A DNA stretch of 64,000 nt from positions 372,001 through 436,000 of the forward strand of contig NZ_JACHXR010000001.1 in the NCBI RefSeq assembly GCF_014192275.1, given 5' to 3'. How positions within the stretch are numbered: the first letter of the stretch is position 1; the number at the start of each line of letters is the position of its first letter. The stretch is from Halomonas stenophila (lineage in GTDB: Bacteria > Pseudomonadota > Gammaproteobacteria > Pseudomonadales > Halomonadaceae). The position numbers and the translations under genes were made by a program. This document shows, one piece after another, positions 1,798-47,400 of this stretch. The notes beneath the pieces were generated by a model that ran no database searches, was not told the origin of the DNA, and saw only the letters and a list, made by a program, of their open reading frames with translations.

Positions 1798-4377
1798 ATG
1801 AATGCCCTGATGTCGACCCTGCCGCCAGCCGCGCTGTCCTTCATGGATCCCTTCGGTTTCGGTCGCGCCGCCTTCGACTACTGGCGCGACACCCTGGAGC
1901 GCAGCACGCTCTACCTGGATGTCATGCGCCAGCGCGGCAACCAGTATCTCGAGTATATCGAGCAGACCAAGCCCAATGTGCTGGGCTTCGAGGCCGAGGT
2001 GCTGCTGGACGGGCGTGACCTGCCGCGCCCGGTGAACTACGAGCTGCTGCGGATCCTGCCGCCCCAGGCGATGGAGACCGACCCGCGGATGCGGCCCTTC
2101 GTGGTCGTCGATCCCCGCGCCGGTCACGGGCCGGGGATCGGCGGCTTCAAGCCCGACAGCGAGCTCGGCGTGGCCCTGCGCGCCGGGCATCCCTGCTACT
2201 TCATCGGCTTCTTGCCGTACCCCGAGCCCGGCCAGACCGTCGAGGACGTGGTCGAGGCGGAGGTCGCCTTCCTGCGCCATGTCATCGACCTCCATGCCGA
2301 GACCGCGGAGAAGCCGATGGTCGTCGGCAATTGCCAGGCGGGCTGGCAGATCATGATGGCGGCGGCCCTGGAGCCCGAGGTATTCGGCCCGATCCTGATT
2401 GCTGGCGCGCCGCTGTCCTACTGGGCGGGCGAGCATGGCGGCGCGCCGATGCGCTATACCGGCGGGATGACCGGCGGCACCTGGGTGACCGCGCTGCTCG
2501 GTGACCTGGGCGCCGGACACTTCGACGGGGCCTGGCTGGTCCAGAACTTCGAGCGCCTCAATCCGGCCAATACCTGGTGGAACAAGCAGTATCGGCTCTA
2601 CGCCAACGTCGATACCGAGGCCGACCGCTATCTGGAGTTCGAGCGCTGGTGGGGCGGGCATGTGGTGCTGGGTGCTCAGGAGATCCAGTACATCGTCGAC
2701 AACCTGTTCGTCGGCAACCGTCTCTCCACCGCCCAGCTGATCACCTCGGACGGGCGTCGCATCGACCTGCGCAACCTGCGCTCGCCGGTGGTGGTGTTCT
2801 GCTCCCGGGGCGATAACATCACGCCGCCGCCCCAGGCGCTGGGCTGGATCCGCGACCTCTACGAGGACACCGACGACATCATCGCCAACGAGCAGACCCT
2901 GGTGTACTGCGTCCATGACACCACGGGACACCTGGGGATCTTCGTGTCGGGCAGCGTGTCCCGCAAGGAGCACGCCGAGTTCACCGCCAACATGGACTAC
3001 ATCGACGTGCTGCCGCCGGGGCTCTACGAGACCTCGGTCTCGCGGGCCGAGGAGCGCCCCGATGCCGAGCTGATCGAGCGGGACTACCTGCTCGAGTTCG
3101 AGCGCCGCAGCATCGAGGAGCTCGACCGGGAGGTCCAGCACCGCCCGGAGGACGATCGACGCTTCGCCACGGTGGCACGTATCTCCGAGATCAACCTGGG
3201 GCTCTATCGCCTCTTCGTGCAGCCCTGGGTCCAGGCGCTGGCGACCCCGGAGGCCGCCCACTGGATGCGGCTGTTGCACCCCAATCGCATGGGCTACCGG
3301 CTGCTGTCGGATCGCAACCCGCTGATGGTGCCGGTACCGGTGATGGCCGAGACGGTGCGCCGCGAACGCCACGAGGTGGGCCAGGACAACGTCTACCGGG
3401 CCGTGGAGGGCATCCTCTCCAGCCAGATCACCCATGTCCTCGACGCCTGGCGCAACCTGCGCGACCGGACCAGCGAGCGAGTCTTCCTGGACCTCTATGG
3501 CCAGCCCCTGTTGCAGGCCCTGGTCGGCCTGGGCGGCGACGCCCATGTGCATCGCCGTCGCCCCGGTGCCGAGCCGGAACACCGCCGCTTCGTCCAGCGC
3601 CGCCGGGAGGAGATCCATGCCCTGGTCGCCGAGGGCGGCAGCCACGAGGCGGTCATGCGCTCGGTCATCCATGTGCTGGGCGGCGCGCCCGCCAGCGACG
3701 AGCGCAACTTCAAGCGCCTGCGGGCCTCCCGTGCGGAACTCGAGCCGGGTATCCGCCTGGCCGACTTCAAGCACCTGGTGCGCGAGCAGTTCTTCATCCT
3801 CAACCAGGATCACGAGGCGGCGCTGGCGGCGATCCCGACGCTGCTGGCGGGGCAGACTGCCGAGCAGATCGAGGGGCACCTGGCGCATATCGACCACGTG
3901 CTGGCCGCCAGCGGTGAACTCAGCGAGCATGCCGCCGAGCGCTTTGCGCATATCCAGTCGCTGTTCCGCCAGGCCAAGCCGGCCGGCAGCCGGGAGACCG
4001 GCGGCGAGGGGCCAGCCTCGGCGGACGGCGCGGCCTTGGCGTCGCCCGAGGCGGATCGGGCCGAGCCGGCGGTGATCGAGAGCCGGCCGGCTGAGACCAC
4101 GCCGGTCGACCCCCCGCAGGAGACCGCCGGCTCGGCCAAGCCCCCGCAGGCGGCTGCCCCGCCGGCCGAGGCTTCGCAGCCCGCGGCCACGCCGGCCAAG
4201 ACGTCGAAGAACACCGCCGGCTCGGCCAAGCCACCGCAGGCGGCTGACCAGCCGGCCGAAGATGCGGGCAAGCCCGATCCGGCGGCCGCCAGCGACAAGC
4301 CGGCCTCCAACCGGCGTCGCAGCACGACTCGCAAGGCCAACCCGCGCCGCCGCAGCCCGGGCAAGCAAGACGACTGA
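1798..4377 (+). CDS. DUF3141 protein, PHA synthase-like alpha/beta hydrolase
   Basis: The 859-aa product belongs to the DUF3141 family, distantly related to poly(3-hydroxyalkanoate) synthases. Residues 1-about 400 form an alpha/beta-hydrolase region with a lipase-box-like VGNCQAGW at about 178-185, where PhaC has its nucleophilic cysteine in GxCxG. Candidate Asp and His residues lie in VVFCSRGDNITPP and TGHLGIF. A long alpha-helical C-terminal part follows. The last about 150 residues are low-complexity Ala/Pro/Lys with repeated SAKPPQAA blocks, ending in a basic Arg/Lys tail that might contact DNA or granules. The start is the ATG at 1798 with GGAG at 1787-1790. The upstream TTGC dyad fits PHA-linked control. 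Polymerase activity is not established for this family. Confidence 0.88.
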   Translation: MNALMSTLPPAALSFMDPFGFGRAAFDYWRDTLERSTLYLDVMRQRGNQYLEYIEQTKPNVLGFEAEVLLDGRDLPRPVNYELLRILPPQAMETDPRMRPFVVVDPRAGHGPGIGGFKPDSELGVALRAGHPCYFIGFLPYPEPGQTVEDVVEAEVAFLRHVIDLHAETAEKPMVVGNCQAGWQIMMAAALEPEVFGPILIAGAPLSYWAGEHGGAPMRYTGGMTGGTWVTALLGDLGAGHFDGAWLVQNFERLNPANTWWNKQYRLYANVDTEADRYLEFERWWGGHVVLGAQEIQYIVDNLFVGNRLSTAQLITSDGRRIDLRNLRSPVVVFCSRGDNITPPPQALGWIRDLYEDTDDIIANEQTLVYCVHDTTGHLGIFVSGSVSRKEHAEFTANMDYIDVLPPGLYETSVSRAEERPDAELIERDYLLEFERRSIEELDREVQHRPEDDRRFATVARISEINLGLYRLFVQPWVQALATPEAAHWMRLLHPNRMGYRLLSDRNPLMVPVPVMAETVRRERHEVGQDNVYRAVEGILSSQITHVLDAWRNLRDRTSERVFLDLYGQPLLQALVGLGGDAHVHRRRPGAEPEHRRFVQRRREEIHALVAEGGSHEAVMRSVIHVLGGAPASDERNFKRLRASRAELEPGIRLADFKHLVREQFFILNQDHEAALAAIPTLLAGQTAEQIEGHLAHIDHVLAASGELSEHAAERFAHIQSLFRQAKPAGSRETGGEGPASADGAALASPEADRAEPAVIESRPAETTPVDPPQETAGSAKPPQAAAPPAEASQPAATPAKTSKNTAGSAKPPQAADQPAEDAGKPDPAAASDKPASNRRRSTTRKANPRRRSPGKQDD

Positions 4378-4429: not shown

Positions 4430-4573
4430 TTTCGCTATTATCCCGGGCTTGTCGCCGTGGAATCAGCGGTCTAGGGTCATAGGCTCGGCCCCGTCGTGAC
4501 TGGCGCGATGGCCGGTGCTGGGGTAGGGTAAGCCATTTTTCACCCGTCGAGACTGGGCGGGCCGAAACCGTCC

Positions 4574-30432: not shown

Positions 30433-31209
30433 ATGAAAGTCGTTATCCTGGCAGGTGGTTTCGGTACTCGTCTAAGCGAGGAGACCTCGATTCGTCCCAA
30501 GCCGATGGTAGAGATAGGCGGGCGACCTATTCTCTGGCACATCATGAAGAACTATGCCCATTTCGGCTTCAAGGACTTCGTGATCCTCGGCGGCTACAAG
30601 GTCGACTATATCCGCAATTACTTTCTCAACTACCGCGGCAAGCAGACGGATTACACCATCGACATGAAGACGGGGCGGGTCGAATGGCTGCAGGGCGTCA
30701 GCGAAGACTGGACCGTGACCGTACTGGATACCGGTGCGGAGTCGTTGACCGGCGGCAGGATCAAGCGCGCCGCGCCATTGATCGGCAATGAATCCTTCTG
30801 CCTGACCTACGGTGACGGTGTCAGCGATGTGGACATCCAGGCCCTTGTCGAGGCCCACCGTGCCTCGGATTGCTGGTGCACCCTCACGGCGGTGACACAG
30901 CCCGGACGATACGGGGCCCTGAGGCTGGATGAGGCGAGCAGTCACGTCAAGGCCTTCCGGGAAAAGGGAGCCGTGGATGGGGGGCTGATCAATGGAGGCT
31001 TCTTCGTCTGTGAACCCGAGGTGATGGACCTGATCGATGACGACCGAACGACCTGGGAGAACGAGCCGATGGAGCGCATGATCGAGATGGGCAAGCTGGG
31101 ATATTTCCACCATCAGGGTTATTGGCAAAGCATGGATTCGCTGCGTGACAAGATGGTGCTCGAGGCCAGCTGGGCGGATACCCCCCCCTGGAAGCTTTGG
31201 GCGGACTAG
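30433..31209 (+). CDS. rfbF: Glucose-1-phosphate cytidylyltransferase
   Basis: The 258-aa product matches RfbF/DdhA, which makes CDP-glucose from CTP and glucose-1-phosphate. The N-terminal nucleotidyltransferase signature LAGGFGTRLSEETSIRPKP is complete, and the metal-binding region YGDGVSDVD and the C-terminal HQGYWQSMDSLRDK are present. Length is as usual. ATG 30433 has GGAG 8 nt upstream. In most species rfbG (CDP-glucose 4,6-dehydratase) follows; here a SAF-domain oxidoreductase follows instead, so the downstream CDP-sugar is unusual or is completed by genes elsewhere. Confidence 0.95.
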   Translation: MKVVILAGGFGTRLSEETSIRPKPMVEIGGRPILWHIMKNYAHFGFKDFVILGGYKVDYIRNYFLNYRGKQTDYTIDMKTGRVEWLQGVSEDWTVTVLDTGAESLTGGRIKRAAPLIGNESFCLTYGDGVSDVDIQALVEAHRASDCWCTLTAVTQPGRYGALRLDEASSHVKAFREKGAVDGGLINGGFFVCEPEVMDLIDDDRTTWENEPMERMIEMGKLGYFHHQGYWQSMDSLRDKMVLEASWADTPPWKLWAD

Positions 31210-34295: not shown

Positions 34296-35504
34296 ATGTC
34301 ACTCGACTCCCTCACGGATACCGACAGTGCCCTTCTGGCATCTGCCGGGGCGGCCTCGGTTGTGTCTCCGAAGGATGCGGCGGCGCCCGGGATACGTCCC
34401 AGGCCGCCCATTCTCACCACCAGCCAGCTGGGCATGGCACCCAGCGGTGATCCAGTGACGGACCATCGACACCTTCAGCGCTTTATCGACGATGTCGCCA
34501 CGGACAGGGTGATAGGAGTGATCGAGGCGGGGCACTGGTTCGTGCATCGCAAGTTGCGACTGCGTGATGGTCTGCGCCTGCGTGGTCAGGGGATGGCGAA
34601 TACCGTTATCGAAGCGCGTCCCGAGGACTGGCTCGAGGACAGGTATACGCTGATGCATCTCGATGTCGGGGAAACCCTTCATGAGAGTGGCGTTGTGCTG
34701 TCCGACTTCTCTTTGATCGGTGCCGACAAGCGTGCCACCGACAACGGCCCCCTGCTGGTGCTGTCGGGGGTCTCCGACTTCCTGATCGAGAGGGTCCGCA
34801 CCGAGGATGCCTCCAGTTACGGAATCTTCGTGGCCGGCTACGGGGTAGGGGACTTTACCAACGACATTCACAGTGACTTCTGGAACTCGACGCATCGTGG
34901 CGTGATTCGCCAGTGCCGAGCCTTGCGCGGCCAGGTCGGGATCGGCTGCGAGGGCGGGGCACAGAACGTGCTGATCATGGCCAATCATACCGATGGTCAA
35001 ACGCTACATGGTTTCCGTCTCGCCTCCGCCTATGATACCCAGCTGATCGCCAACAGCGCGATCAATACCCTGAATGCCTACTGGATCGACCGTCACGACG
35101 GCATCCATGTGCTGTACAACGTGGCCAGCCAGGTCAAGCGAGGCTGCGTGTACGGCGGCTTCCACCAAGAGCGGGACGGTCGCGTTTCGAGAGGCCTATG
35201 GATACTCGGCAATCGCTTCAGTACCTCGGGCACCACCATTACCGATGCCTATCAGGGGAATGCCGACAAGTTTACCCGTATCGTCAAGATCAAGGACAAC
35301 CTGCTCGAGGGAGGCCATGTGCGCCTGCTGTGGTCGCGGCAGGTCGATATCCAGGGCAACGATGGTGATGGTCGCAATGCCATCATCACCTCCCACGAGG
35401 TCAGTGGGTTCATCGGCAACAACTTCCTGCGACTGCACAACACCTCGGATGCCGTGATGGACCTGGGCAGGAATATCGACGCTATCGAGCCCCTCGGCCG
35501 CTGA
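34296..35504 (+). CDS. Right-handed parallel beta-helix protein
   Basis: The 402-aa product shows repeated short beta-strand rungs with Asn/Gly turns (NSAINTLNAYWIDRHDGIHVL, RIVKIKDNLLEGGHVRLLW, DIQGNDGDG), typical of pectate-lyase-like helices. The N-terminal DVATDRVIGVIEAGHW and GLRLRGQGMANTVIEA segments form the usual cap and first coils. No signal peptide is visible, so export would need another route, or it acts in the cytoplasm. ATG 34296 has CAGGAG 7 nt upstream; the frame opens earlier at 34203, overlapping the GT2 stop, but lacks a ribosome-binding site there. A role as polysaccharide lyase, epimerase or hydrolase is possible. Confidence 0.75.
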   Translation: MSLDSLTDTDSALLASAGAASVVSPKDAAAPGIRPRPPILTTSQLGMAPSGDPVTDHRHLQRFIDDVATDRVIGVIEAGHWFVHRKLRLRDGLRLRGQGMANTVIEARPEDWLEDRYTLMHLDVGETLHESGVVLSDFSLIGADKRATDNGPLLVLSGVSDFLIERVRTEDASSYGIFVAGYGVGDFTNDIHSDFWNSTHRGVIRQCRALRGQVGIGCEGGAQNVLIMANHTDGQTLHGFRLASAYDTQLIANSAINTLNAYWIDRHDGIHVLYNVASQVKRGCVYGGFHQERDGRVSRGLWILGNRFSTSGTTITDAYQGNADKFTRIVKIKDNLLEGGHVRLLWSRQVDIQGNDGDGRNAIITSHEVSGFIGNNFLRLHNTSDAVMDLGRNIDAIEPLGR

Positions 35505-36088
35505 GACTAGGCTGTCTGGCTGGAATGGGGGGCTTTCTCGTGCATTCCGGCACGACGGAAATGACTAGTTTTCTCCTCCTGCCTGATCCATTCTCCGCCC
35601 GTGACTGTGCGATCCCGCCTCTAGTGACCAGTCATCACGTTCCTTTTTTCCTGGTCCGATTGAAATGCCTTTCAATACAGGAAGATGAAGTCGGTATGCG
35701 ATTGCTTCGACTGTCATCATGCATCATGACGACTAAGTCTTTAGTAAGTCTTTAGAAATGAGAAATTCCATACTCACGACAGTTCGTTATATTTGTAATT
35801 TTGTGTAATGATGATTGTGACCCTGTATGTGTTCGGGGTGAACCTGTAATTCATCGAGTGTGATGATGCCATTCATGGAAGATGTCATTGCTGACTGTTA
35901 GCGGGCGAGAGTTTCTCTCGAAAAAAACCATGAAGCGCGCATAGCGAACATCTGGCACTTTCTGCTGGGCATCGGGCAAAGGCACCACGGATGAGCTCGG
36001 TCGGTGATTCGCCGATGAATGAGAAGGGTGGGCCACTGGACTCCAGAAGAGCACTCGGCATTTCTTGAGAGCGAGGGAGAGGAAGACC
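35505..36088. other. AT-rich intergenic region before wza
   Basis: There is no convincing gene in these 584 bp. A tandem pair of TAAGTCTTTAG lies at 35734-35755, and the following 80 bp are strongly AT-rich, a likely promoter/regulator zone for wza. A CGAGAG-TTT-CTCTCG hairpin at 35906-35921 is followed by seven A residues; it has no T-tract on the plus strand, so it is not a terminator for plus-strand transcripts. No ops motif was found here. Confidence 0.5.
35734..35755. repeat. Tandem 11-bp direct repeat upstream of wza
   Basis: TAAGTCTTTAG occurs twice with no spacer, one DNA helical turn apart, so a regulator could bind both on the same face. Position suggests an activator or repressor site for the wza-wzc operon. 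Confidence 0.55.
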
Positions 36089-37210
36089 ATGAACAAGCTG
36101 ACACGCAGCACCTGCTTGGCTGTCGCACTGCTTCCTGTGAGCCTGGTGGGAGGGTGTGCTCTGGCACCCGGTGGCCATATCGATTATGAAGCGCAGGAGA
36201 TGAACCTGGATAATCAGGTGGATATCGTGTCGATCACGCCGCAACTGATCTCGAACTATCGTGCCGAGAATGGCACCACGAAGGCGCAGTCGATGTCGCC
36301 CGAGATGATACGCGAGATCGAGGAATATCAGTATTATGTCGGGCCGGGTGATGTACTGAATATCATCGTCTACGATCATCCGGAACTGACCATTCCGGCG
36401 GGCAGTGAACGCAGTGCAGAAGAATCGGGTACCCTGGTCCATGCCGACGGCACCATTTACTATCCCTATATCGGCAACATTCAGGTAGAGGGGAAGACCG
36501 TCAACCAGATCCGTAGCATCCTCACCCAGCGCCTGGCGACCTATATCGCCGAGCCCCAGGTCGAGGTGAATGTGGCGGCCTTCCGCTCCAAGAAGTACTA
36601 CATCAGCGGCGAGGTCGAAGCTCCCGGCACACAGCCCATCACCAATGTGGCCATGACCGTGCTGGATGCGATCAGCCAGGCGGGGGGGGCCACCGAAAAT
36701 GCCAACTGGCACAACGTCACCCTGACGCGTAACGGCCAGGAACGGACGCTGTCTCTCTACGACATACTGAAGAAGGGTGATCTGACACAGAACACCCTGA
36801 TGCAGGCCGGTGACGTCCTCCATGTCTCCTCGGCAGAGAACCAGAACATCTCCGTGCTGGGCCAGGTGCGCAACCCGGGCAATGTTCAGGTGGGTAGGGA
36901 ATACCTCAGTCTCACCGATGCCCTGTCTCGGGCCGGGGGCGTCGTCGAGAGTCGTGCCGAACCTTCCGGCATCTTCGTGATTCGGGCGAAGCCGCAGGGC
37001 AGCGACAAGATGGCGACCGTCTTCCAGCTCGATATCTCCAACGCCGTCGCCCTCAACATGGGGTCCTATTTCCCGCTCGAGCCTCAGGACGTCGTCTACG
37101 TGACGTCTGCACCGCTGGCTCGCTGGAACAACGTCATCAGTCTGCTGCTGCCGTCCATCAGCCTGCCCAGTACGGTGGCTGACACGACCAGTGATGTTGG
37201 CGACCTCTGA
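36089..37210 (+). CDS. wza: Outer-membrane polysaccharide export lipoprotein
   Basis: The 373-aa product is a Wza-type polysaccharide export protein. A lipoprotein signal peptide ends in LVGGC with acylated Cys23. The PES domain (YYVGPGDVLNIIVYDHPEL) is followed by SLBB-type domains (YISGEVEAPG and ISVLGQVRNPG). The C-terminus RWNNVISLLLPSISLPST is the amphipathic segment that forms the helical barrel across the outer membrane. GGAG-rich sequence precedes ATG 36089. It pairs with wzc downstream, with no wzb between them; a phosphatase gene is at 47709. A remnant of a second wza lies at 47493. Confidence 0.97.
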   Translation: MNKLTRSTCLAVALLPVSLVGGCALAPGGHIDYEAQEMNLDNQVDIVSITPQLISNYRAENGTTKAQSMSPEMIREIEEYQYYVGPGDVLNIIVYDHPELTIPAGSERSAEESGTLVHADGTIYYPYIGNIQVEGKTVNQIRSILTQRLATYIAEPQVEVNVAAFRSKKYYISGEVEAPGTQPITNVAMTVLDAISQAGGATENANWHNVTLTRNGQERTLSLYDILKKGDLTQNTLMQAGDVLHVSSAENQNISVLGQVRNPGNVQVGREYLSLTDALSRAGGVVESRAEPSGIFVIRAKPQGSDKMATVFQLDISNAVALNMGSYFPLEPQDVVYVTSAPLARWNNVISLLLPSISLPSTVADTTSDVGDL

Positions 37211-37232
37211 TCCACTCGAGCCACTCCGTGTG

Positions 37233-37282
37233 ATGGCAACCTCAGGCAGCGGGTCATCCAGGACCGCGCATGAGGTTGCCAT
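37233..37282. other. 12-bp inverted repeat between wza and wzc
   Basis: ATGGCAACCTCA at 37233-37244 and TGAGGTTGCCAT at 37271-37282 are perfect complements with a 26-nt spacer. They fill the place where wzb normally lies. The structure could be a regulatory hairpin or the scar of a deletion. Confidence 0.55.
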
Positions 37283-37345
37283 GATACCCGAGGCAGGGTC
37301 TTCCAGAGCGGTGTTTCGCCGCACCCTTCCAAGGATGACATCAAC

Positions 37346-39586
37346 ATGACCAGTTTGCATACGAACACCATGGTACAACCCCGCCAAGGGATGTCTCCTT
37401 CCCCCACCATGCCCCTTGGTGAAGAAAATTTCGATCTGGGACGCCTGCTTGGCATACTGATCGATAACAAGTGGAAGATTATCCTGTTGACCCTGTTGTT
37501 CGGGATCGCCGGCTTCGTCTACTCGCAGCTCGTCACCCCTATCTACCAGGGGGATGCCCTCGTCCAGGTGGAAAGGGCCGGTGGCAATAACGGTGCCGAC
37601 GAGATCGCGGCGATGCTTACCGAAGAAGAGCCGAGGACGGCGGCACAGGTGGAAATCCTGCGTTCCCGGCTCATCATCGGCCAGGCGGCGAGCCAAGAGA
37701 AGCTGGATATCAGCGTCTCACCCGTCGTTTTCCCCGTCGTCGGCAACGCCATCATCCGCCACGAGATCCTGCGTCCCGCCTTCGCCGAGGGCCGGCCCGA
37801 GGTATGGGGCGGCGAGAGCATCAGCGTGGAATCGCTGAGCGTCGATCCGGAGCTCGTGAACAAGCCGCTCATCCTGGAGGTGACCGGCGACGGCGGCTAC
37901 CGGCTCCTCGATCAGGAGGAGGAGGAGGTGCTGTTGACCGGCTGGCCCGGTGAGCGGGCCGAGGCCAGCACCCCCTGGATCGAGATCCGGGTCGGCGAGA
38001 TCCAGGCGCCGCCCGGGGCCCGATTCACCGTCGTCAAGCGCAGCCCTCAGGGGGCGATCAACAGCCTCAAGAGCCGCTTCAATGTCCTGCAGAAGGGGGA
38101 GAGCGATACCGGCGTCCTGGAACTGATCCTGATTGGCCCCGATCGCGCCGAGGTGGAGTCGTCGCTCAATGCCATCGCCGAGGTGTATCTGGCGCAGAAT
38201 ATCGCCCGCCAGGCCGCCGAGGCCGAGAAGAGCCTGGACTTCCTCGACAAACAGCTGCCGCGGGTGCGGGAGCAGCTGGTGCAGGCCGAGAATCGGCTCA
38301 ACGACTACCGCACCGAGCAGGAGAGCGTCGATCTGACTCAGGAGACCCAGAACGTCCTGACCAGCATGGTCGATATCGAGAGCCGCATGAATGAGCTCGA
38401 GATGCAGGAATCCGAGCTGTCGCGGCGTTTCACTCCCAATCACCCGGTCTATGCCGCCCTGCTCGACAAGAAGGCCCAGCTCCAGCGCGAGCGGGCCAAC
38501 CTGGAAGAGCGCACCAGCAACCTGCCCGAGACCCAGCAGCAGATCCTTCGGATGACCCGTGATGTGGAGGTCACCCAGCAGATCTACGTGCAGCTGCTCA
38601 ACCGCATGCAGGAGTTGAACATCGCCAAGGCCGCCACCGTCGGTAACGTGCGCATCATCGACTTCGCCATGGTCAAGCCCTGGCCGATCAAGCCGAGGCC
38701 GGCGCTGATCATGGTCATCGCCATGCTGGTGGGGCTGCTGCTGGCCATTAGCCTGATCCTGCTGCGCGGGCTGCTCAGCAAGGGCGTCGAGAGTGCCGAG
38801 CAACTGGAGGATCTCGGCCTGCCGGTCTATGCCACGGTGCCCCGCTCCTTCGACCAGATGAAACTCGTCAAGCGCATCAAGTACCGCAAGGACAAGGTCT
38901 CCAAGCATGCCATCGGCAGTTTCCTGGCCAAGTCCCATCCCACCGACATGGCCGTGGAAGCGATCCGCGGGCTGCGCACCAGCCTGCACTTCGCCATGAT
39001 GGATGCGCGCAACAACTGCATCATGATCACCGGCCCGAGTCCGGGGATTGGCAAGAGCTTCATCACCATCAACCTGGCCTTCGTCTGTGCCCAGGCGGGG
39101 CAGAAGGTGCTGGTGCTCGATTCGGACATGCGCAAGGGCAACTTGCACCACACCTTCAAGGACAAGTCCGAAAAGGGGCTCTCCGAGGTGATCTCCGGCA
39201 AACTGTCCGCCGAGAAGGCCATCCGCGCCTCCGATGTGCCTGGTCTTCACTACATGACACGTGGCGTTGCACCGCCCAACCCCTCCGAGCTGCTGATGCG
39301 TCGAGAGTTCGCGGAGATGGTGGGGGAGGTCAGCCAGGCCTATGACCTCGTCTTCATCGACACGCCGCCGATCCTGGCCGTCACCGATGCCTCCATCATC
39401 GGCAAGGTGGCCGGCACTTCCCTGCTGGTCGCGCGCTTCGGTGTCAACCCGCTGCGCGAGGTCAAGATTGCCGTGCGTCGCCTGGAGACGACCGGGGTCG
39501 AGGTGAAGGGCTGCATCCTCAACGCGATCGAGAAGACCGCCGCCATCAGCTATGGGTACGGTTATTACAACTATTCCTATAAATGA
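37346..39586 (+). CDS. wzc: Polysaccharide co-polymerase / BY-kinase Wzc
   Basis: The 746-aa inner-membrane tyrosine autokinase controls polymer length and export. Membrane helix 1 is at about 43-60, then a long periplasmic coiled-coil region follows with GNVRIIDFA before helix 2 at about 452-474. The cytoplasmic kinase has Walker A GPSPGIGKSF (about 563), Walker A' LVLDSDMRKG (about 589) and Walker B VFIDTPPIL. The C-terminal cluster YGYGYYNYSYK provides the autophosphorylated tyrosines. It lies 135 bp after wza. A second, clearly paralogous wzc is present at 51226. Confidence 0.97.
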   Translation: MTSLHTNTMVQPRQGMSPSPTMPLGEENFDLGRLLGILIDNKWKIILLTLLFGIAGFVYSQLVTPIYQGDALVQVERAGGNNGADEIAAMLTEEEPRTAAQVEILRSRLIIGQAASQEKLDISVSPVVFPVVGNAIIRHEILRPAFAEGRPEVWGGESISVESLSVDPELVNKPLILEVTGDGGYRLLDQEEEEVLLTGWPGERAEASTPWIEIRVGEIQAPPGARFTVVKRSPQGAINSLKSRFNVLQKGESDTGVLELILIGPDRAEVESSLNAIAEVYLAQNIARQAAEAEKSLDFLDKQLPRVREQLVQAENRLNDYRTEQESVDLTQETQNVLTSMVDIESRMNELEMQESELSRRFTPNHPVYAALLDKKAQLQRERANLEERTSNLPETQQQILRMTRDVEVTQQIYVQLLNRMQELNIAKAATVGNVRIIDFAMVKPWPIKPRPALIMVIAMLVGLLLAISLILLRGLLSKGVESAEQLEDLGLPVYATVPRSFDQMKLVKRIKYRKDKVSKHAIGSFLAKSHPTDMAVEAIRGLRTSLHFAMMDARNNCIMITGPSPGIGKSFITINLAFVCAQAGQKVLVLDSDMRKGNLHHTFKDKSEKGLSEVISGKLSAEKAIRASDVPGLHYMTRGVAPPNPSELLMRREFAEMVGEVSQAYDLVFIDTPPILAVTDASIIGKVAGTSLLVARFGVNPLREVKIAVRRLETTGVEVKGCILNAIEKTAAISYGYGYYNYSYK

Positions 39587-39589
39587 CCG

Positions 39590-39632
39590 CTGAGGCTCGG
39601 AGCGGAGCAAGGGGCTACGCTCCGAGCCTCAG
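39590..39632 (+). other. 15-bp inverted repeat between wzc and wzy
   Basis: CTGAGGCTCGGAGCG (39590-39604) and CGCTCCGAGCCTCAG (39618-39632) form a perfect 15-bp stem with a 13-nt loop, starting 3 bp after the wzc stop. With no T-tract it is more likely an mRNA-stability or rho-linked attenuation hairpin than a simple terminator. Confidence 0.6.
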
Positions 39633-39681
39633 GTAGGGGAGCATCACACCGGCGACGCCAGAGAACCCCAAGCGTAGGTGG

Positions 39682-41031
39682 ATGACCGTGAAATATTCAA
39701 CCAGAGCCATGGACGTCGACAGCTTCCGAGGGGGCCTCCGGTACATCCACGGGGTGACCTATCGAAATATCATCATGTTGACGCTGTTGCTGTATCTCTA
39801 CCTGCTGAGCCCCTATTTCGATGTAGGCGGCATGCTGATCCACGGCGGCATGATCTCGATCTTCCTGTTCTTCGTCGCTCATTATCGTCTGGTCCTCAGG
39901 TCATTTCAGCAAGCATCCCTGCTGCTGACGCTCATCGGGCTATGCCTGTTCTGCCTGTATAACCTGATCCTGATCATCGTCTATATGGAGGCCTTCAGCA
40001 CCTCCTTCCAGAACTACATGATCCAGGTGGGAATCTACATCCTGCTGGGCTTCGTCCTGGCCTTCTACATGATCGACAAGGCGCTCGACCTGGATCAGGC
40101 ACTGACCCTGTGCTTCCGGCTGATTGCCTTCGTGGTCTTCATCAACGCCATCATCATCCTGGTGGAGTATCACTTTCCGCCGTTCCGCCAGTTCGTGGAG
40201 TCCATGCTGTACCAGCAAGAGAACACCAATATCAACTATCTGACCCGCGAGTACCGGCTTCGCGGTATCGCCTCCGGGGGCGCGGCCAATCTCTCGCTCT
40301 TCCACGGCACCGTGCTGGTGCTGCTCCAGGCCCTCTATATCAAGCGCAAGATCGGCTTGCTGTATTTCCTGGTGGCCTCGGTGACCATCTTCACCTCGCT
40401 GCTGTTCATCGGCCGCACCGGTATCGTGGTCGGCTTCATCGGCATCGTTCTGTTTCATTTTCTCAACCTGATGATGTCGCGGCAGAAGGCGTCCATGCGG
40501 CGGGTCATTCTCTACATCAGCATTTCGGCTATCGTGGTCATCGCCCCCCCGGTGTTCGCCATGCTCTTCCCCGATAGCCTGCTGGGTTACTCCATCAGCT
40601 TTCTCTATGAGGGCGTCGAGGGAATTCGTCAGGAGGGAACGGTCACCACGGTGGCCAGCATGTTCGACATGACGGGCCAGTGGCTGAAGCTTCTGTTTGG
40701 CGTGGGGGCCCACTGGGGGGATTTCAATCTGCAGGGACGCGTGGATGCGGGGTATATGCGGATGTTCACGGCCCTGGGTATCCCGCTGGCCGTGCTCTTC
40801 TATCTGCTGATCGGCTATCTCGCTCGGTTCCTGCTGGTGATTACCCATTACAAGAGCCTGTGGATCGTCATCATGATCATCATGTTCATCGCCGAGATCA
40901 AGGAGCCGTTCATCTTCAAGGGATACTCGGCAAGGCTGATGTGGATGTTGATCGGCATGGGAATCTGTTACACCTTCTGTTCGCCTTTCTATGAGGAACA
41001 GGTGAAATCCACGCCGAGAAAGAGCGCCTGA
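39682..41031 (+). CDS. Wzy-like polysaccharide polymerase / O-antigen ligase family membrane protein
   Basis: The 449-aa product has about eleven hydrophobic helices and little else, as expected for Wzy polymerases, which join repeat units in the periplasm. A larger periplasmic loop between about residues 300 and 360 contains YEGVEGIRQEGTVTTVASMFDMTGQW and an HW motif (VGAHWGDFNLQGRVDAGYMR), similar to the large loop of Wzy/WaaL proteins. AGGTGG at 39676-39681 sits 6 nt before an in-frame GTG at 39688, so the true start may be two codons downstream. It follows wzc after a strong inverted repeat. Confidence 0.82.
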   Translation: MTVKYSTRAMDVDSFRGGLRYIHGVTYRNIIMLTLLLYLYLLSPYFDVGGMLIHGGMISIFLFFVAHYRLVLRSFQQASLLLTLIGLCLFCLYNLILIIVYMEAFSTSFQNYMIQVGIYILLGFVLAFYMIDKALDLDQALTLCFRLIAFVVFINAIIILVEYHFPPFRQFVESMLYQQENTNINYLTREYRLRGIASGGAANLSLFHGTVLVLLQALYIKRKIGLLYFLVASVTIFTSLLFIGRTGIVVGFIGIVLFHFLNLMMSRQKASMRRVILYISISAIVVIAPPVFAMLFPDSLLGYSISFLYEGVEGIRQEGTVTTVASMFDMTGQWLKLLFGVGAHWGDFNLQGRVDAGYMRMFTALGIPLAVLFYLLIGYLARFLLVITHYKSLWIVIMIIMFIAEIKEPFIFKGYSARLMWMLIGMGICYTFCSPFYEEQVKSTPRKSA

Positions 41032-41099
41032 GGCTTGTCTGGAAAGTCGGCGAGCACAGTCACTTTTCAGGCATCGATTAGGGGAGGAGGGAGAGCGTC

Positions 41100-42044
41100 A
41101 TGCGGCCACTCGTCAGTGTCATCATCCCCGTCCACAACAAGGGAGACTACGTATCACGGGCCCTGCAGTCCGTGCTCGACCAGAGCTATCCGCGGCTCGA
41201 GGTGCTGGTCGTCGATGATGCCTCACGGGACGATAGCCTGGCCCGCGTCGCCCGCTTCGACGATGCCCGGATCCGGGTACTGCGAAGGGAATGCCCGGGG
41301 CCCGGCGGCTACGCCGCGCGGAACCTGGGGATCCAGCAGGCCCGCGGCGACTGGGTCGCCTTTCTCGACGCCGATGACGTCTGGCTGCTCGACCATCTCG
41401 ACCAGTCGATGGGGATCGCCGTCCGCTATCCGGAAATCGCGCTCATCAGCGCGGCGCGTCTCCTGCAGCGGGGCGGTCGGCAGCAACTGGACGCCTTCGC
41501 CGAGCGCTTCATGCCCCGGGGCCCCCAGGTGCTCCATCTCACGGATTACCTGAAGCAGGCCTGCCAGGGGCGGCGTGCCATGGGTACCAACTCGGTGCTG
41601 ATCAAGCGGGCCGCGCTCGATACCCATCGGGTCTTTCCCGAAGGCCGCACGCAGCGCTCCGGCGATCTCTATGCCTGGGTGGAGCTGCTGGCGAGATTGA
41701 AGTATCTGGTCTGGTCGCCCCATGTCGCCTCCGTCCACCACGGGGACGTGATCGGCGTGTCCCGCAACAATATCCCGTCCATGGCGCTCTTCCGCGACAT
41801 GGTCGAAGATCTCCGCGCGTACACCACCCAGGAGGACGAGAAGTGGTTGAAGATCTACGCCAACCAGATGATCAAGTACGCCTGGCTCGAGCAGAAGAAA
41901 AAGCGTGAGGCGCTGCCGGTCTCGGCACTGCCCGGTGCCTTCTACTGGACGCATGGCCGGGGCTATTGCCTGAAGTGGACGATGCTCTCCCTGGTGCCCT
42001 TCGGGGTACTCGAATGGTTGAAGCAGCACTCGCCGGCCGACTGA
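41100..42044 (+). CDS. Glycosyltransferase family 2
   Basis: The 314-aa GT-A enzyme begins RPLVSVIIPVHNKGDYVSRAL. It has the nucleotide-binding VVDDASRDDSL and the DXD-type FLDADDVWL at about 92-100. It is a cytoplasmic sugar transferase building the repeat unit. A GGGGAGGAGGGAG run gives a very strong ribosome-binding region before ATG 41100. The gene lies between wzy and the double GT4 frame on the same strand. Donor specificity cannot be inferred. Confidence 0.93.
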   Translation: MRPLVSVIIPVHNKGDYVSRALQSVLDQSYPRLEVLVVDDASRDDSLARVARFDDARIRVLRRECPGPGGYAARNLGIQQARGDWVAFLDADDVWLLDHLDQSMGIAVRYPEIALISAARLLQRGGRQQLDAFAERFMPRGPQVLHLTDYLKQACQGRRAMGTNSVLIKRAALDTHRVFPEGRTQRSGDLYAWVELLARLKYLVWSPHVASVHHGDVIGVSRNNIPSMALFRDMVEDLRAYTTQEDEKWLKIYANQMIKYAWLEQKKKREALPVSALPGAFYWTHGRGYCLKWTMLSLVPFGVLEWLKQHSPAD

Positions 42045-42080
42045 GGCCTGCCGCGATCACGCCACGACAGGGAGCCCTGC

Positions 42081-44459
42081 ATGCATATCGTCCATGTCAT
42101 CACCAGCCTCTACCCCGGGGGCGCCCAGTCGGCCCTCTGCCGGCTGTGCACGGGCGACACGTGCCACCGTCACACCGTCATCGCCATGCTCGGCGGTGGT
42201 GCCCTGGAGGAGACGCTACGCGCTCACGGGGTCGAGGTGTTCTCCCTGAACTGTACCCGCCTGAGTGGGCTGCTCGCCGGGAGCGTGACCCTCTACAGGC
42301 ACCTCAGGCGGTTGCGTCCGGATCTCGTCCAGACCTGGATGTACCATCCCGACCTGGTCGGCGGGCTCTGCGCGCGCCTCGCCGGCATTCGCCACGTCTG
42401 CTGGGGGATCCGCCATACCGCCCTGGAGGCGGGGCAGAGCTCTCGCTCCTCGATCCTCGCGGCCAGGCTCGGTGCGCGCCTGTCGGGATGGGTTCCCGAG
42501 CGCATCGTCTGCTGCGCCCATGAAGCGGCCGAGCTGCATGCCTCGCTCGGCTATCGTGCCGACAAGCTGGTGGTGATCGCCAACGGCTACGACCTCGCCG
42601 ACTTCCGGCCCCGCGAGGACGCCGCCGCGCAGCGCGCCGCACTGCTGGGTGACGACGCCGACCGGCCCGTCCTGGGCATGGTGGGGCGCTTCAATGCCCA
42701 GAAGGATCACCGGAACCTCCTCGAGGCGCTGGCCGAGGTGCAGGCCCGCGGCCAGGATTTCCTGTGCCTGCTGATCGGCGCACGCCTCGATGCCGACAAC
42801 GCCGAGCTGGTCGGTTGGATCGACGCACGGGGCCTGGCGTCGCGGGTTCGCCTGCTGGGCGTGCGCTCGGATATCCCGCGGCTGATGAACGCCCTCGACC
42901 TGCACGTGCTCTCCAGCGCCTTCGGCGAGGGTTTTCCCAACGTGATCGCCGAGGCCATGGCCTGCGGAACGCCCTGCGTAGGCACGGCGGTCGGCGACAC
43001 CGCGCGGATCATCGACGAGACCGGCTGGCTGGTGCCTCCCCGGGAGCCGACGGCGCTCGCGCAGGCGATCCTGGCCGCGCTTGACGAGCGCGAGAGGCAG
43101 CCGGCGCGCTGGGCCGAGCGGCGCCAGGCCTGCACCCGACGCATCGCCGATCACTTCACCCTGGAGCGGATGGTGAGCGCCTTCGACGACGTCTGGCGCG
43201 AGTGCCTCGGTGACACCCGCGACAGGGCGGGGCGGCGATGGGGCGGGGGGGGCGGCAGGGCGCAAGGGACGGACAGCGAAAGAGGAGCGCTCATGAACCG
43301 GGAACCACAGGGGACCTTCCTGATCATCGCCGGGGCGCCGGTGTCGCTGGTCAGCTTCCGCGGCCACCTGATCGCCGAGCTGATCGCCCTGGGGCTGAGG
43401 GTCCATGCCGCCGGCCCCAACCTGCCCCCGGACAGCCCGGTCCGCGCCGAGCTGGAGCGGATGGGCGCACGGGTCCATGAGGTCTTCCTCAATCGCACGG
43501 GCATCAGTCCGCTGGACGACCTGCGCACCCTGATCGGCCTGGTCGGCCTGATGCGGCGCATCCGGCCCGACTATGTGCTGGGCTACACCATCAAGCCGGT
43601 GATCTTCGGCACCCTGAGCGCCTTCCTGGCCGGGTGTCCGCACCGCTTCGCGCTGATCACCGGGCTTGGCTACGCCTTCTCGGACCACGAGGTCGGCCGC
43701 CGGCAACGCCTGATCGGCGGGCTCGTCACCGGCCTCTATCGCCAGTCGCTGCGCTTCGCCCACAAGGTGTTCTTCCAGAACCCCGACGACCAGGCCCTGT
43801 TCCGGCGACTGGGCGTGCTGAACGGGGCCACGCCTTCGGTGGTGGTCAACGGTTCCGGGGTCGACGTCGACCATTACGCCCCGCGGGCGCCGGCCCCGCG
43901 CCCGACCTTCCTGCTGATCGCCCGCCTGCTGATCGACAAGGGGGTGCGCGACTATGCCGAGGCCGCCTATCGCCTCAAGGCGGAGTTTCCCGAGGCCCAC
44001 TTCCTGCTGGTGGGGATGCTGGACAGCAACCCGCGGTCGATTCCGCCCGCGGAGCTGGCTCGCTGGGAGGCCGACGGCGTCATCAGCTATCTCGGCTCGA
44101 TGCGTGACGTGCGCGAGGCCCTCGGGGCCGCCAGCGTCTTCGTGCTGCCCAGCTTCTATCGCGAGGGCGTGCCGCGCACCATCCTCGAGGCGCTGGCGAT
44201 GGGACGGCCGGTGATCACCACCGATACGCCCGGCTGTCGCGAAACCGTGGTGGACGGCGAGAACGGCTACCTGGTCCCCCCGCGGGACGTCGACAGCCTG
44301 GCCGCGGCCATGCGTCGCTTCCTCGAGCGTCCCGAACTGGCGATCAGCATGGGCGAGCGCGCCCGGCAAACGGCCCTGACGAAGTATGACGTCAGGCGAG
44401 TCAACGCGGTGATGCTCAAGGAGATGGGGTTCACATGCTCAAGCGATGCTTCGATGTGA
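42081..44459 (+). CDS. Tandem GT4 glycosyltransferases read as one frame (probable fusion by G-tract)
   Basis: The open frame encodes 792 aa with two complete GT-B glycosyltransferases. Residues 1-about 380 start MHIVHVITSLYPGGAQSALC and contain the family-4 EX7E region FGEGFPNVIAEAMACGTP. Residues from about 405 start MNREPQGTFLIIAG and contain FYREGVPRTILEALAMGRP. The joining segment is a low-complexity GRRWGGGGGRAQG encoded around an 8-G tract at 43245-43252. With one G fewer, the first enzyme would stop at the TGA at 43294, overlapping the internal ATG at 43293 (ATGA). Two coupled genes are therefore the likely ancestral state. The frame ends 25 bp inside the next gene. Confidence 0.85.
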   Translation: MHIVHVITSLYPGGAQSALCRLCTGDTCHRHTVIAMLGGGALEETLRAHGVEVFSLNCTRLSGLLAGSVTLYRHLRRLRPDLVQTWMYHPDLVGGLCARLAGIRHVCWGIRHTALEAGQSSRSSILAARLGARLSGWVPERIVCCAHEAAELHASLGYRADKLVVIANGYDLADFRPREDAAAQRAALLGDDADRPVLGMVGRFNAQKDHRNLLEALAEVQARGQDFLCLLIGARLDADNAELVGWIDARGLASRVRLLGVRSDIPRLMNALDLHVLSSAFGEGFPNVIAEAMACGTPCVGTAVGDTARIIDETGWLVPPREPTALAQAILAALDERERQPARWAERRQACTRRIADHFTLERMVSAFDDVWRECLGDTRDRAGRRWGGGGGRAQGTDSERGALMNREPQGTFLIIAGAPVSLVSFRGHLIAELIALGLRVHAAGPNLPPDSPVRAELERMGARVHEVFLNRTGISPLDDLRTLIGLVGLMRRIRPDYVLGYTIKPVIFGTLSAFLAGCPHRFALITGLGYAFSDHEVGRRQRLIGGLVTGLYRQSLRFAHKVFFQNPDDQALFRRLGVLNGATPSVVVNGSGVDVDHYAPRAPAPRPTFLLIARLLIDKGVRDYAEAAYRLKAEFPEAHFLLVGMLDSNPRSIPPAELARWEADGVISYLGSMRDVREALGAASVFVLPSFYREGVPRTILEALAMGRPVITTDTPGCRETVVDGENGYLVPPRDVDSLAAAMRRFLERPELAISMGERARQTALTKYDVRRVNAVMLKEMGFTCSSDASM
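43245..43296 (+). other. G8 tract and ATGA junction inside the double GT4 frame
   Basis: Eight consecutive G residues (43245-43252) are followed, 40 nt on, by ATGA at 43293-43296 with GAGGAG upstream at 43282-43287. In the frame reached by losing one G there is no stop before that TGA. The layout has the hallmarks of a slippage site deciding between a fused protein and two coupled proteins, or of a sequencing/assembly error in a homopolymer. Confidence 0.8.
43293..44459 (+). CDS. Second GT4 glycosyltransferase, internal start of the double frame
   Basis: Translation from ATG 43293 gives 388 aa covering the second GT-B unit alone (IIAGAPVSLVSFRGHLIAEL at the N-terminus, EX7E region near the C-terminus). 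GAGGAG lies 5 nt upstream. It resembles GT4 enzymes of the PglA/WcaL kind that act next to a PglC-like initiating transferase, which is the next gene. It may be made independently of the fusion. This entry overlaps the longer frame on purpose. Confidence 0.7.
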   Translation: MNREPQGTFLIIAGAPVSLVSFRGHLIAELIALGLRVHAAGPNLPPDSPVRAELERMGARVHEVFLNRTGISPLDDLRTLIGLVGLMRRIRPDYVLGYTIKPVIFGTLSAFLAGCPHRFALITGLGYAFSDHEVGRRQRLIGGLVTGLYRQSLRFAHKVFFQNPDDQALFRRLGVLNGATPSVVVNGSGVDVDHYAPRAPAPRPTFLLIARLLIDKGVRDYAEAAYRLKAEFPEAHFLLVGMLDSNPRSIPPAELARWEADGVISYLGSMRDVREALGAASVFVLPSFYREGVPRTILEALAMGRPVITTDTPGCRETVVDGENGYLVPPRDVDSLAAAMRRFLERPELAISMGERARQTALTKYDVRRVNAVMLKEMGFTCSSDASM

Positions 44460-45058
44460 CGGTCGCTGCCGGCCTGCTGGCGCTGCTGGCGCCGCTGCTG
44501 CTCGTCGTGGCGCTACTGGTGCGCTGGCGGCTCGGCTCGCCGGTGTTCTTCATTCAGACCCGCCCGGGACGCCACGCCGAGCCGTTTCGCATGGTCAAGT
44601 TTCGCACCATGCGCGATACCCGCGACGCGCAAGGCGAGCTGCTGCCCGCGAAATGCCGACTGACCGCCTTCGGCAGCCTGCTGCGCTCCACCAGCCTCGA
44701 CGAGCTGCCCGAGTTGTGGAACGTCCTGAAGGGCGACATGAGCCTGGTCGGCCCCCGGCCACTGCTGGTGGACTACCTGCCGCTCTATACCCCCGAGCAG
44801 CGGCGCCGCCACGAGGTACGCCCCGGCATCACCGGCTGGGCCCAGGTCAACGGGCGCAACGCCATCACCTGGGAAGAGAAGTTCCACTACGACATCTGGT
44901 ATGTCGACCACCAGTCCTTCCGGCTGGATATCAGGATCCTGATGTTGACGGCCAGAAAGGTGTTCATTCGTGAAGGTATCTCCCACGCCAATGATGTTGG
45001 CATGCCGAGGTTTAAGGGGGTGAAGTCGGCGTGCAAGAGGAGCAACGAACATGACTGA
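44435..45058 (+). CDS. PglC-like initiating phosphoglycosyltransferase
   Basis: The 207-aa protein is a monotopic phosphoglycosyltransferase that moves a sugar phosphate onto undecaprenyl phosphate. The N-terminal re-entrant hydrophobic helix (VTVAAGLLALLAPLLLVVALLV) is followed by KFRTMRD, the catalytic SLDELPELWNVLKGDMSLVGPRPL with the Asp-Glu dyad, and RPGITGWAQVNGRN. The short size without extra membrane domain is the PglC class, often specific for bacillosamine-type amino sugars. The start overlaps the GT4 end by 25 bp. A second, long WcaJ-type initiating enzyme is at 53455. Confidence 0.94.
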   Translation: MLKRCFDVTVAAGLLALLAPLLLVVALLVRWRLGSPVFFIQTRPGRHAEPFRMVKFRTMRDTRDAQGELLPAKCRLTAFGSLLRSTSLDELPELWNVLKGDMSLVGPRPLLVDYLPLYTPEQRRRHEVRPGITGWAQVNGRNAITWEEKFHYDIWYVDHQSFRLDIRILMLTARKVFIREGISHANDVGMPRFKGVKSACKRSNEHD

Positions 45059-46127
45059 CAGGATCAACATCCTCGTGACGGGGGTGGGGGGACCCACACC
45101 CCGCAGCTTCGTCAGGTCGATTCTCGAGTCGGCCTGTGAGCGCTATCGATTCGTGGGAGTGGATGCGAATCCCCTGGGCATCGGCCTCTATGACCGGGAC
45201 AGCTACCTCGATACCTACGTGGTGCCGGAGGCCGACAGCGACGATTACTGGTCTGCCATCGGCCGCATCGTCAATCGGCACGAGATCGCCTTGGCCGTGG
45301 TCATGCCGGAGGTCGAGGTGCTGGCCTGGGCCAGGGCCCAGGAAGAACACAGGCTGCCCTGCAAGGCGTTCGTTCCCGCCTATCAGGCGAGTCGCGTCCT
45401 GGTGGACAAGAAGGCGATGCATGACGTCCTGCACGGCAAGCAGTATCTGCCGAAGCATTGCACCTTCTCGAACGGCGCCGATATCGGCGACCTGCCGTTA
45501 CCCTATCCGTTCTGGGTGCGTGCCACCACTGGGTCGAGCGGTCTCGGCTCCCTGAAGGTCAACAACCGGCAAGCCCTCGACGAATGGGTGCGCATCAACC
45601 CCGCCGTGGAGGAGTTCATTGCCTCGGAATTCCTGCCGGGCCGAAACCTGGCCTGCAAGCTGCTCTATGTCGATGGCCAGCTGCTGCGCTCGGCGTGTGC
45701 CGAACGGGTGGAGTACATCATGGCCAAGGTGGCTCCGTCCGGCATCACCGGCAACACCGCCTTCGGGCGCCTGATCAATGACCGGCACCTGGTCGATATC
45801 GCCGATGACGCCATCCGGGAGGTCTTCGCCCGCCATGGCATCCAGCCGCACGGCGTGTTCACGGCGGATCTCAAGGAAGCGGCAGACGGGCAGCCGATGA
45901 TCACCGAAATCAACGTGAGGTGCGTGGCCTTCGTGTCGGCATTGGCCAGGGCCGGCGCCAATCTGCCCCTCGATTACCTCGAGGCCAACCTGAATCCCGA
46001 TGGGTTCTCTTTCGCCTATCGGCACTATGTGTTCCAGGACGACATGATCTTTCTGCGCGACGTCGATGAAGCGCCGGTGGTCATGAAGGAAAGCGAACTC
46101 CTGACGCGCGAGGCCTTCGATGATTGA
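45051..46127 (+). CDS. ATP-grasp enzyme (carbamoyl-phosphate-synthase-like)
   Basis: The 358-aa protein has an N-terminal pre-ATP-grasp domain (INILVTGVGGPTPRSFVRSI) and an ATP-grasp core with the lid PFWVRATTGSSGLGSLKV at about 147-163 and metal ligands in MITEINVR near 285-292. Enzymes of this type form an amide or peptide bond using ATP and are found in glycan clusters next to DegT aminotransferases, where they may couple an amino acid or acyl group to an amino sugar. It overlaps its neighbours on both sides by 8 bp (45051-45058 and 46120-46127), so the three genes are probably translated together. Confidence 0.88.
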   Translation: MTDRINILVTGVGGPTPRSFVRSILESACERYRFVGVDANPLGIGLYDRDSYLDTYVVPEADSDDYWSAIGRIVNRHEIALAVVMPEVEVLAWARAQEEHRLPCKAFVPAYQASRVLVDKKAMHDVLHGKQYLPKHCTFSNGADIGDLPLPYPFWVRATTGSSGLGSLKVNNRQALDEWVRINPAVEEFIASEFLPGRNLACKLLYVDGQLLRSACAERVEYIMAKVAPSGITGNTAFGRLINDRHLVDIADDAIREVFARHGIQPHGVFTADLKEAADGQPMITEINVRCVAFVSALARAGANLPLDYLEANLNPDGFSFAYRHYVFQDDMIFLRDVDEAPVVMKESELLTREAFDD

Positions 46128-47292
46128 TGGACCCTTTTCTCCCTGGCCCTGCTTCACCGAGGAAGAGGCCCGGGCCGTGGAAGAGGTCCTGCTGTCCAAC
46201 CGGGTCAATTACTGGACGGGACACCAGGGCCGTGACTTCGAGCGCGAGTTCGCCGAGAGCCTGGGCTGCGAATACGCCATCGCCGTCAGCAACGGCACGG
46301 TGGCCCTGGAGCTGGCCCTGCGCGGCCTGGGCATCGGCCCCGGCGACGAGGTGATCGTCACCTCGCGGACCTTCCTGGCCTCCGCCTCCTGCATCGCCGC
46401 GGTGGGCGCCACCCCGGTCTTCGCCGATGTGGATCGCGATTCCCAGACCATCACCCCGGCGACCGTGGCCGCCGTGATCACGCCCCGCACCCGGGCGATC
46501 ATCGCTGTGCATCTGGCGGGCTGGCCCTGCGACATGGCGGGCCTGATGGCGCTGTCCCGCGATGGCATCGCGATCATCGAGGACTGCGCCCAGGCTCACG
46601 GCGCCCGCTATCGGGGCCAGCCCGTGGGCGCCATCGGCCGGGTGGGTTGCTGGTCGTTCTGCCAGGACAAGATTCTCACCACCGGCGGGGAGGGCGGCAT
46701 GGTCACCACCAGCGACCCGGCGCTCTGGCAGCGCATGTGGGCCTACAAGGACCACGGCAAGAGCTGGCAGGCCGTGCACGATCCCTCGCCGCCTTCCGGC
46801 TTTCGCTGGCTGCACTACAGCCTGGGCACCAACTGGCGGATGGCCGAGATACCGGCGGTCATCGGTCGGATCCAGCTGCGTCGGCTACCGGCCTGGTCGG
46901 CGGCGCGTCGCGCCAATGCCCAGCGCATCTGGGCGGCGGCGGAAGCGTGCCCCGGGCTCCGCGTGCCCGTCGTTCCCGACGACATCCAGCACGCCGCCTA
47001 CAAGTGCTATGTCTTCGTCGAGCCCCAGGCGCTTCATGCCGGTTGGAGCCGGGACCGCATCATCGAGGCGGTCGTCGCGCGCGGCGTGCCCTGCTTCAGC
47101 GGCTCCTGTTCCGAGGTCTACCTCGAGAAGGCCTTCGACGACACCGGCTGGCGACCCGACACCCGCCTGCCCGTGGCCCGCGAACTCGGCGAGACCAGCC
47201 TGATGTTCCTCTGCCACCCCACCCTGACGGAGCAAGAAATCGACACCACCTGCCGCGTGCTCGACGACGTCATGGCTCAGGCCGCCGGCTGA
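46120..47292 (+). CDS. DegT/DnrJ/EryC1/StrS sugar aminotransferase
   Basis: The 390-aa PLP enzyme installs an amino group on a keto-sugar nucleotide. It has the SNGTVALELALRGLGIGPGDEV cofactor-phosphate region, the aspartate in IIEDCAQAHGARY, and the Schiff-base Lys184 in SFCQDKILTTGGEGGM. Length is typical. It starts inside the end of the ATP-grasp gene. With the PglC-like transferase it suggests a bacillosamine-like or other amino sugar as the first residue, although the expected 4,6-dehydratase and acetyltransferase are not next to it. Confidence 0.94.
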   Translation: MIDGPFSPWPCFTEEEARAVEEVLLSNRVNYWTGHQGRDFEREFAESLGCEYAIAVSNGTVALELALRGLGIGPGDEVIVTSRTFLASASCIAAVGATPVFADVDRDSQTITPATVAAVITPRTRAIIAVHLAGWPCDMAGLMALSRDGIAIIEDCAQAHGARYRGQPVGAIGRVGCWSFCQDKILTTGGEGGMVTTSDPALWQRMWAYKDHGKSWQAVHDPSPPSGFRWLHYSLGTNWRMAEIPAVIGRIQLRRLPAWSAARRANAQRIWAAAEACPGLRVPVVPDDIQHAAYKCYVFVEPQALHAGWSRDRIIEAVVARGVPCFSGSCSEVYLEKAFDDTGWRPDTRLPVARELGETSLMFLCHPTLTEQEIDTTCRVLDDVMAQAAG

Positions 47293-47307
47293 GCCGGCCC
47301 CTTCCTC

Positions 47308-47400
47308 CGCGATCCGTCGCGCAGCGGCGGTGGGGGATGCCACGGGCGCCTGATGGTGCCATCGGGCTCTCTGCTGAGGCGTCGGACCGGCACTCCCACA
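47308..47400. repeat. Dispersed repeat (copy 2)
   Basis: It shares CGCGATCCG(T)CGCGCAGCG, GCCATCG and GCGTCGGACCGG...CTCCCACA, in that order, with 26449-26570. It sits between the aminotransferase and the wza remnant, at a likely recombination boundary. Confidence 0.65.

Follow-up and report, generated by a model that had tools for sequence, protein, structure and literature searches.

The closest described parallel to the locus studied here is the NgoAV system of Neisseria gonorrhoeae. According to the accessible text of the report, hsdS1 and hsdS2 become fused, with altered specificity, when a poly-G tract loses one G, and strains carry 6, 7, 8 or 9 G at this position (PMC9577141). A second case is EcoKI, where joining of the overlapping, coupled hsdM and hsdS genes gave a working enzyme, as stated in the abstract (PMC3510504). 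In a survey of Neisseria, a tract of at least 9 G was taken as the sign of poly-G phase variability, as far as the excerpted text describes it (PMC5953494). We found no report in the open literature of homopolymeric phase variation in Halomonas, nor of a homopolymer or frameshift associated with an exopolysaccharide glycosyltransferase.

We analysed a stretch of 64,000 nucleotides from Halomonas stenophila (hereafter the window, whose coordinates are used throughout), which contains a Wza/Wzc-type polysaccharide cluster. This cluster includes a wza-like gene with Poly_export and SLBB domains (36065-37210), a wzc-like gene (37346-39586), a protein without Pfam match (39682-41031) and a GT2-family enzyme (41100-42044), followed by two GT4 glycosyltransferase regions that we refer to as GT4-A and GT4-B. 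Downstream lie a Bac_transf sugar-phosphate transferase (44435-45058), a protein with weak similarity to carbamoyl-phosphate-synthase-like families (45051-46127) and a DegT-type aminotransferase (46120-47292). The catalytic region of GT4-A, taken as residues 1-379, the part alignable with Halomonas maura, occupies 42081-43217 on the plus strand and matches PF13692, PF00534 and PF13439. Its similarity to NCBIfam TIGR03088 is distant, with a score of 248.9, below the cut-off of 409. GT4-B comprises 388 aa (43293-44459, plus strand), matches PF13692 and PF00534, and is 95% identical to a separate H. maura gene. A promoter scan of 41900-44600 found none.

A tract of eight G (43245-43252, plus strand) lies between the two GT4 regions. 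The initial annotation had described both domains as complete, and this is borne out, since each half alone matches GT4 Pfam models (PF13692, PF00534, PF13439/PF13579). We recomputed the reading frames for tract lengths of 5-11 G. With 8 G, the sequence as given, and likewise with 5 or 11 G, one long frame is open; at 8 G it spans 42081-44459 on the plus strand and encodes both complete GT4 regions in 792 aa, the architecture of a double-GT4 enzyme, which agrees with the fusion claimed earlier. With 7 or 10 G, GT4-A is 404 or 405 aa long and stops at the TGA of 43294-43296, in an ATGA overlap (43293-43296, plus strand) with the GT4-B start codon at 43293. The loss of one G therefore has the consequence that had been predicted for it. 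The internal start also has its own Shine-Dalgarno-like GAGGAG (43282-43287, plus strand), 5 nt upstream of the ATG, and overlap and GAGGAG together give the layout of two putatively coupled genes. A third state, absent from the initial annotation, appears with 9 or 6 G, where the GT4-A frame runs to 466 or 465 aa and ends at 43480. Both GT4 regions and the GT4-B start are intact at every length from 5 to 11 G, so slippage would produce no OFF state.

This anatomy works like a known kind of fusion switch, which makes the junction a candidate only. It had been proposed that slippage of the G tract switches between one double enzyme and two separate ones and so alters the polysaccharide in a phase-variable manner, and the match with the proven NgoAV case, as its accessible text presents it, speaks for this proposal. 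In both, a short G tract lies at the end of the first gene, a one-base change joins the next gene in frame, and the tract lengths are similar (6-9 G there and 8 G here). The two differ in that the NgoAV tract has been shown to vary in length from strain to strain and to change specificity, whereas one genome was read here; in that the split form of NgoAV truncates a two-part specificity protein, whereas both halves here are complete enzymes; and in that relatives of this strain are without the tract. In EcoKI, as at our locus, a small change of frame unites two overlapping genes, translationally coupled there and putatively so here; EcoKI differs in being an engineered restriction-modification fusion that, by its abstract, involved no homopolymer tract.

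Among 89 other genomes of the genus that we searched, 14 contain GT4-A at an E value of 1e-100 or better, and its ATG start is conserved in all 14. GT4-B lies directly downstream in 13 of them, the exception being one genome (G104) without GT4-B. All 13 congener pairs consist of separate genes that differ in frame, and none of the 13 junctions contains a run of G or C longer than 4. The ATGA overlap is present in five of these pairs, namely H. maura and four other congeners, with other spacings in the remainder. GT4-A and GT4-B are separate too in H. cerina, which came from the named collection only. In another congener (G062), GT4-A is less closely related (36% identity) and belongs to a same-frame pair with a stop codon between the genes.

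The closest relative examined was Halomonas maura CECT 5298 (G016), with protein identities of 91% for GT4-A and 95% for GT4-B. Here and in other halomonads the orthologous pair occupies the same place in the same cluster order, but the genes are separate and have no G tract. In H. maura, GT4-A is 404 aa long and ends in ATGA. Alignment of window positions 34855-47310 with this genome produced a single block (12,460 columns, 91.7% identity). Within predicted genes it has one 3-base gap in the wzc-like gene, two compensating 1-base gaps in the last codons of the gene at 39682-41031, and a 1-base gap at 43253, the 3' edge of the G tract, which is the sole frame-changing gap in a gene body over 12.46 kb. 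The spacing from the GT4-A ATG to the GT4-B ATG is 1212 in our sequence, compared with 1211 in H. maura. Since H. maura is one base shorter and has the 404-aa/ATGA layout, the 8 G represent a +1 change relative to it, and the joined frame a departure from the separate-gene layout of the relatives.

The same comparison is compatible with a sequencing or assembly error, in which the true tract would be 7 G and the genes separate, with an ATGA overlap as in H. maura. The initial annotation had already named a homopolymer sequencing error as the alternative to a switch. A 7-G reading reproduces the H. maura length and layout exactly, the gap stands alone as a frame-changing event in the aligned gene bodies, and the surrounding sequence is very G-rich. 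Sequencing can fail in such a G-rich, motif-rich context. Against an error stands the quality of the assembly, which has 34 contigs, 100% completeness and 0.13% contamination, together with the behaviour of the other G runs in this genome.

The genome contains 32 runs of exactly 8 G and nine longer ones. At the level of open reading frames, 24 of the 32 lie inside predicted ORFs (the junction tract included), seven lie between genes, and one (L167) was flagged as a possible break, although it is intergenic on its coordinates. The other G8 tracts at a distance of over 150 bp from either ORF end number 15, and all are in frame. This control detects gene-breaking errors only, and tracts near gene ends are less informative for it; zero errors in 15 tracts correspond to at most ~18% per tract (95% bound). 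We also scanned 13 G8 tracts with Pfam (12 and L179). In 8 of the 13, one match extends across the tract (L141, L145, L150, L157, L160, L162, L165 and L179); in L166 the tract falls between two domains of one enzyme, in L143, L144 and L167 the matches stop short of it, and L152 has no match. Among the tracts near a gene end, L179 alone shows a strong signal in a different frame past the tract, and there an HATPase_c match runs across the tract. A codon-score test on 300-bp flanks placed 13 of 30 loci in the same frame with strong flanks. L167 was among these and was rejected as a same-frame tract, because it consists of two genes with a stop before the tract, and for this reason we prefer the ORF-level count. 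The 15 in-frame interior tracts and the spanning Pfam matches indicate that G8 errors are not frequent in the assembly. With no break in 15 and a bound of ~18%, an error at the junction is possible but not favoured, and we consider it unlikely.

Three of the 32 exact G8 runs lie within ~12 kb in the window and at first appeared clustered. Enrichment in the polysaccharide region was rejected, as 100 dinucleotide shuffles of the window average 6.53 G8 matches, compared with 3 in the actual sequence (both strands counted), and both other runs are in frame. These two are 8-base G/C runs at 36682-36689, inside the wza-like gene, and at 31181-31188, within the final codons of a gene resembling a sugar-nucleotide transferase. 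Elsewhere in the genome, G8 runs occur within genes for a CysS-like synthetase, a sulfate permease and a Na/H exchanger. The longest run found in the genome has 16 G (L170:3094-3109; G000:C15:92593-92608) and immediately precedes a minus-strand ORF (1929-3008) whose translation reads like a cation-exchanger membrane protein; as a candidate for length variation this run is preferable to the junction G8. Runs of 9 G and 10 G, ~100 bases apart (L171:2847-2855 and 2955-2964; G000:C26:4346-4354 and 4454-4463), fall within a single membrane-protein-like ORF of 466 aa, which matches DUF6708 weakly and below the cut-off.

The linker or tail that holds the junction tract (43221-43292, plus strand) has 41 G in 72 bases (57%). 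Runs of at least 8 G arose in 24% of shuffles and in 26% of first-order Markov copies of this 72-base linker. The tract itself is thus unremarkable, being common in simulated linkers and, in the window as a whole, below the shuffle mean. Judged from sequence, the unusual part is the joined frame relative to the relatives and not the tract. Compared with H. maura, the linker has no further gaps, yet it has strongly diverged, and after the tract it differs at all three codon positions. A selection test on the 15 codons after the tract had too few changes to tell the frames apart. Residues 359-407 fall below a pLDDT of 50 in the predicted structure (mean 72.0, pTM 0.49, 19 rows). Together, the strong divergence, the changes at all codon positions and the low pLDDT suggest that the linker is weakly constrained.

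A pattern scan found overlapping candidate G-quadruplex-type motifs that include the tract (43225-43268, plus strand; four runs of at least three G, with loops of 1-7). On the coding strand, such motifs could influence sequencing, replication or the transcript. A homopolymer of eight bases precisely at the junction, surrounded by these candidate motifs, would also suit slippage of RNA polymerase or the ribosome on the G run, by which one gene would yield both the joined and the single enzyme with the DNA unchanged. However, the ordinary RNA fold at the junction is no better than that of shuffled sequences (z 0.63), the tract is not conserved, and GT4-B has its own start, which makes slippage unneeded. 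We regard expression slippage as very improbable.

Next to the congener pairs, none of which is fused, we observed no GT4-A/GT4-B fusion among 87 other matching genomes in a family search of 274 genomes, nor among 39 matching genomes in a class sample of 368. In a collection of 80 named loci, whose genomes are partly shared with the congener set, a GT4-B-like neighbour is present in 16 and fused in none. Four apparent fusions (G135, G062, G335 and G587) were rejected on inspection, which revealed separate genes or other neighbours; their long frames arose because the search reads through stops. In two of these genomes (G062, L196:1400-1500, and G335, L203), GT4-A/GT4-B-like pairs lie in one frame with a stop codon between them. 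The absence of this fusion from the other genomes examined also fits a one-off assembly error, and to that extent counts against a real indel.

Double-GT4 frames of 623-858 aa do occur at six distant loci (L081, L084, L088, L095, L098 and L103), with 27-38% identity to GT4-A and no G or C run of 6 or more. Both halves are GT4-A-like in L081, L084, L088 and L095, the second half of L081 being partial, and one half is GT4-A-like in L098 and L103. The first four are tandem double GT4s in Pelagibacteraceae, Rickettsiales and Verrucomicrobiaceae records. As candidates for a fusion of this particular pair all six were rejected: they are double GT4s, and none is GT4-A/GT4-B. They resemble our locus in carrying two GT4 regions within a single open frame and differ in that their second half is not GT4-B-like. 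The initial annotation had held that homologues fused without any G tract would speak against a switch. Such proteins exist in a loose sense, as these distant double GT4s, but their second half resembles GT4-A and not GT4-B. Double-GT4 proteins are thus viable in nature, but this pair is unseen in fused form in the genomes examined.

For the proposed phase-variable switch, these data are largely unfavourable. The tract is missing from 13 of 13 congener junctions; retention in related lineages, a supportive sign and not a strict requirement, was found in 0 of 13. Every frame state retains the catalytic regions and the second start, G8 is not enriched in the window, and the other G8 runs of the genome lie in genes such as those for the synthetase, permease and exchanger named above. 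The 8 G also fall short of the 9 G applied to hypermutable length in the excerpted Neisseria survey (PMC5953494), but this threshold is a convention, since NgoAV varies at 6-9 G according to the accessible text of its report (PMC9577141). The claim of phase variation is therefore not upheld, and we consider such a switch improbable. Slightly less probable still is the specific form in which, in a free-living halophile, the G tract reversibly fuses and splits two consecutive exopolysaccharide glycosyltransferases and tunes chain assembly without an OFF state.

Our preferred reading is that a real, lineage-specific indel of one base, with a small effect, arose in a linker that is mutable and under weak constraint. 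We assign it a probability of about 0.6; this figure and the ranking of the alternatives are matters of judgement and were not computed. The real indel is favoured by the comparison with H. maura (1211 against 1212, and the 404-aa/ATGA layout) and the 13 separate congener pairs, by the 15 in-frame interior G8 tracts, and by a linker that is G-rich enough for a chance G8, predicted to be disordered and changing at all codon positions. Double-GT4 proteins also occur naturally elsewhere, and the EcoKI fusion is functional by its abstract (PMC3510504). A one-base gain in the G-rich linker would have fused two formerly separate, overlapping exopolysaccharide GT4 genes. Ribosomes starting at 42081 would then make the 792-aa double enzyme, while those starting at 43293, where GAGGAG is retained, could still make GT4-B alone. 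The change is probably near neutral, because both catalytic regions stay whole. We infer a genuine eighth G, use of the internal start and a small effect.

In conclusion, the main relevance of this junction is for annotation, and it would be premature to treat the 792-aa protein as a proven bifunctional enzyme. Should the eighth G be genuine, the locus would be a small natural case of a one-base fusion of overlapping pathway genes in which the second start is kept. If its length does vary, it would represent a fusion-type switch in a polysaccharide pathway beyond the host-associated bacteria in which such switches are usually studied.
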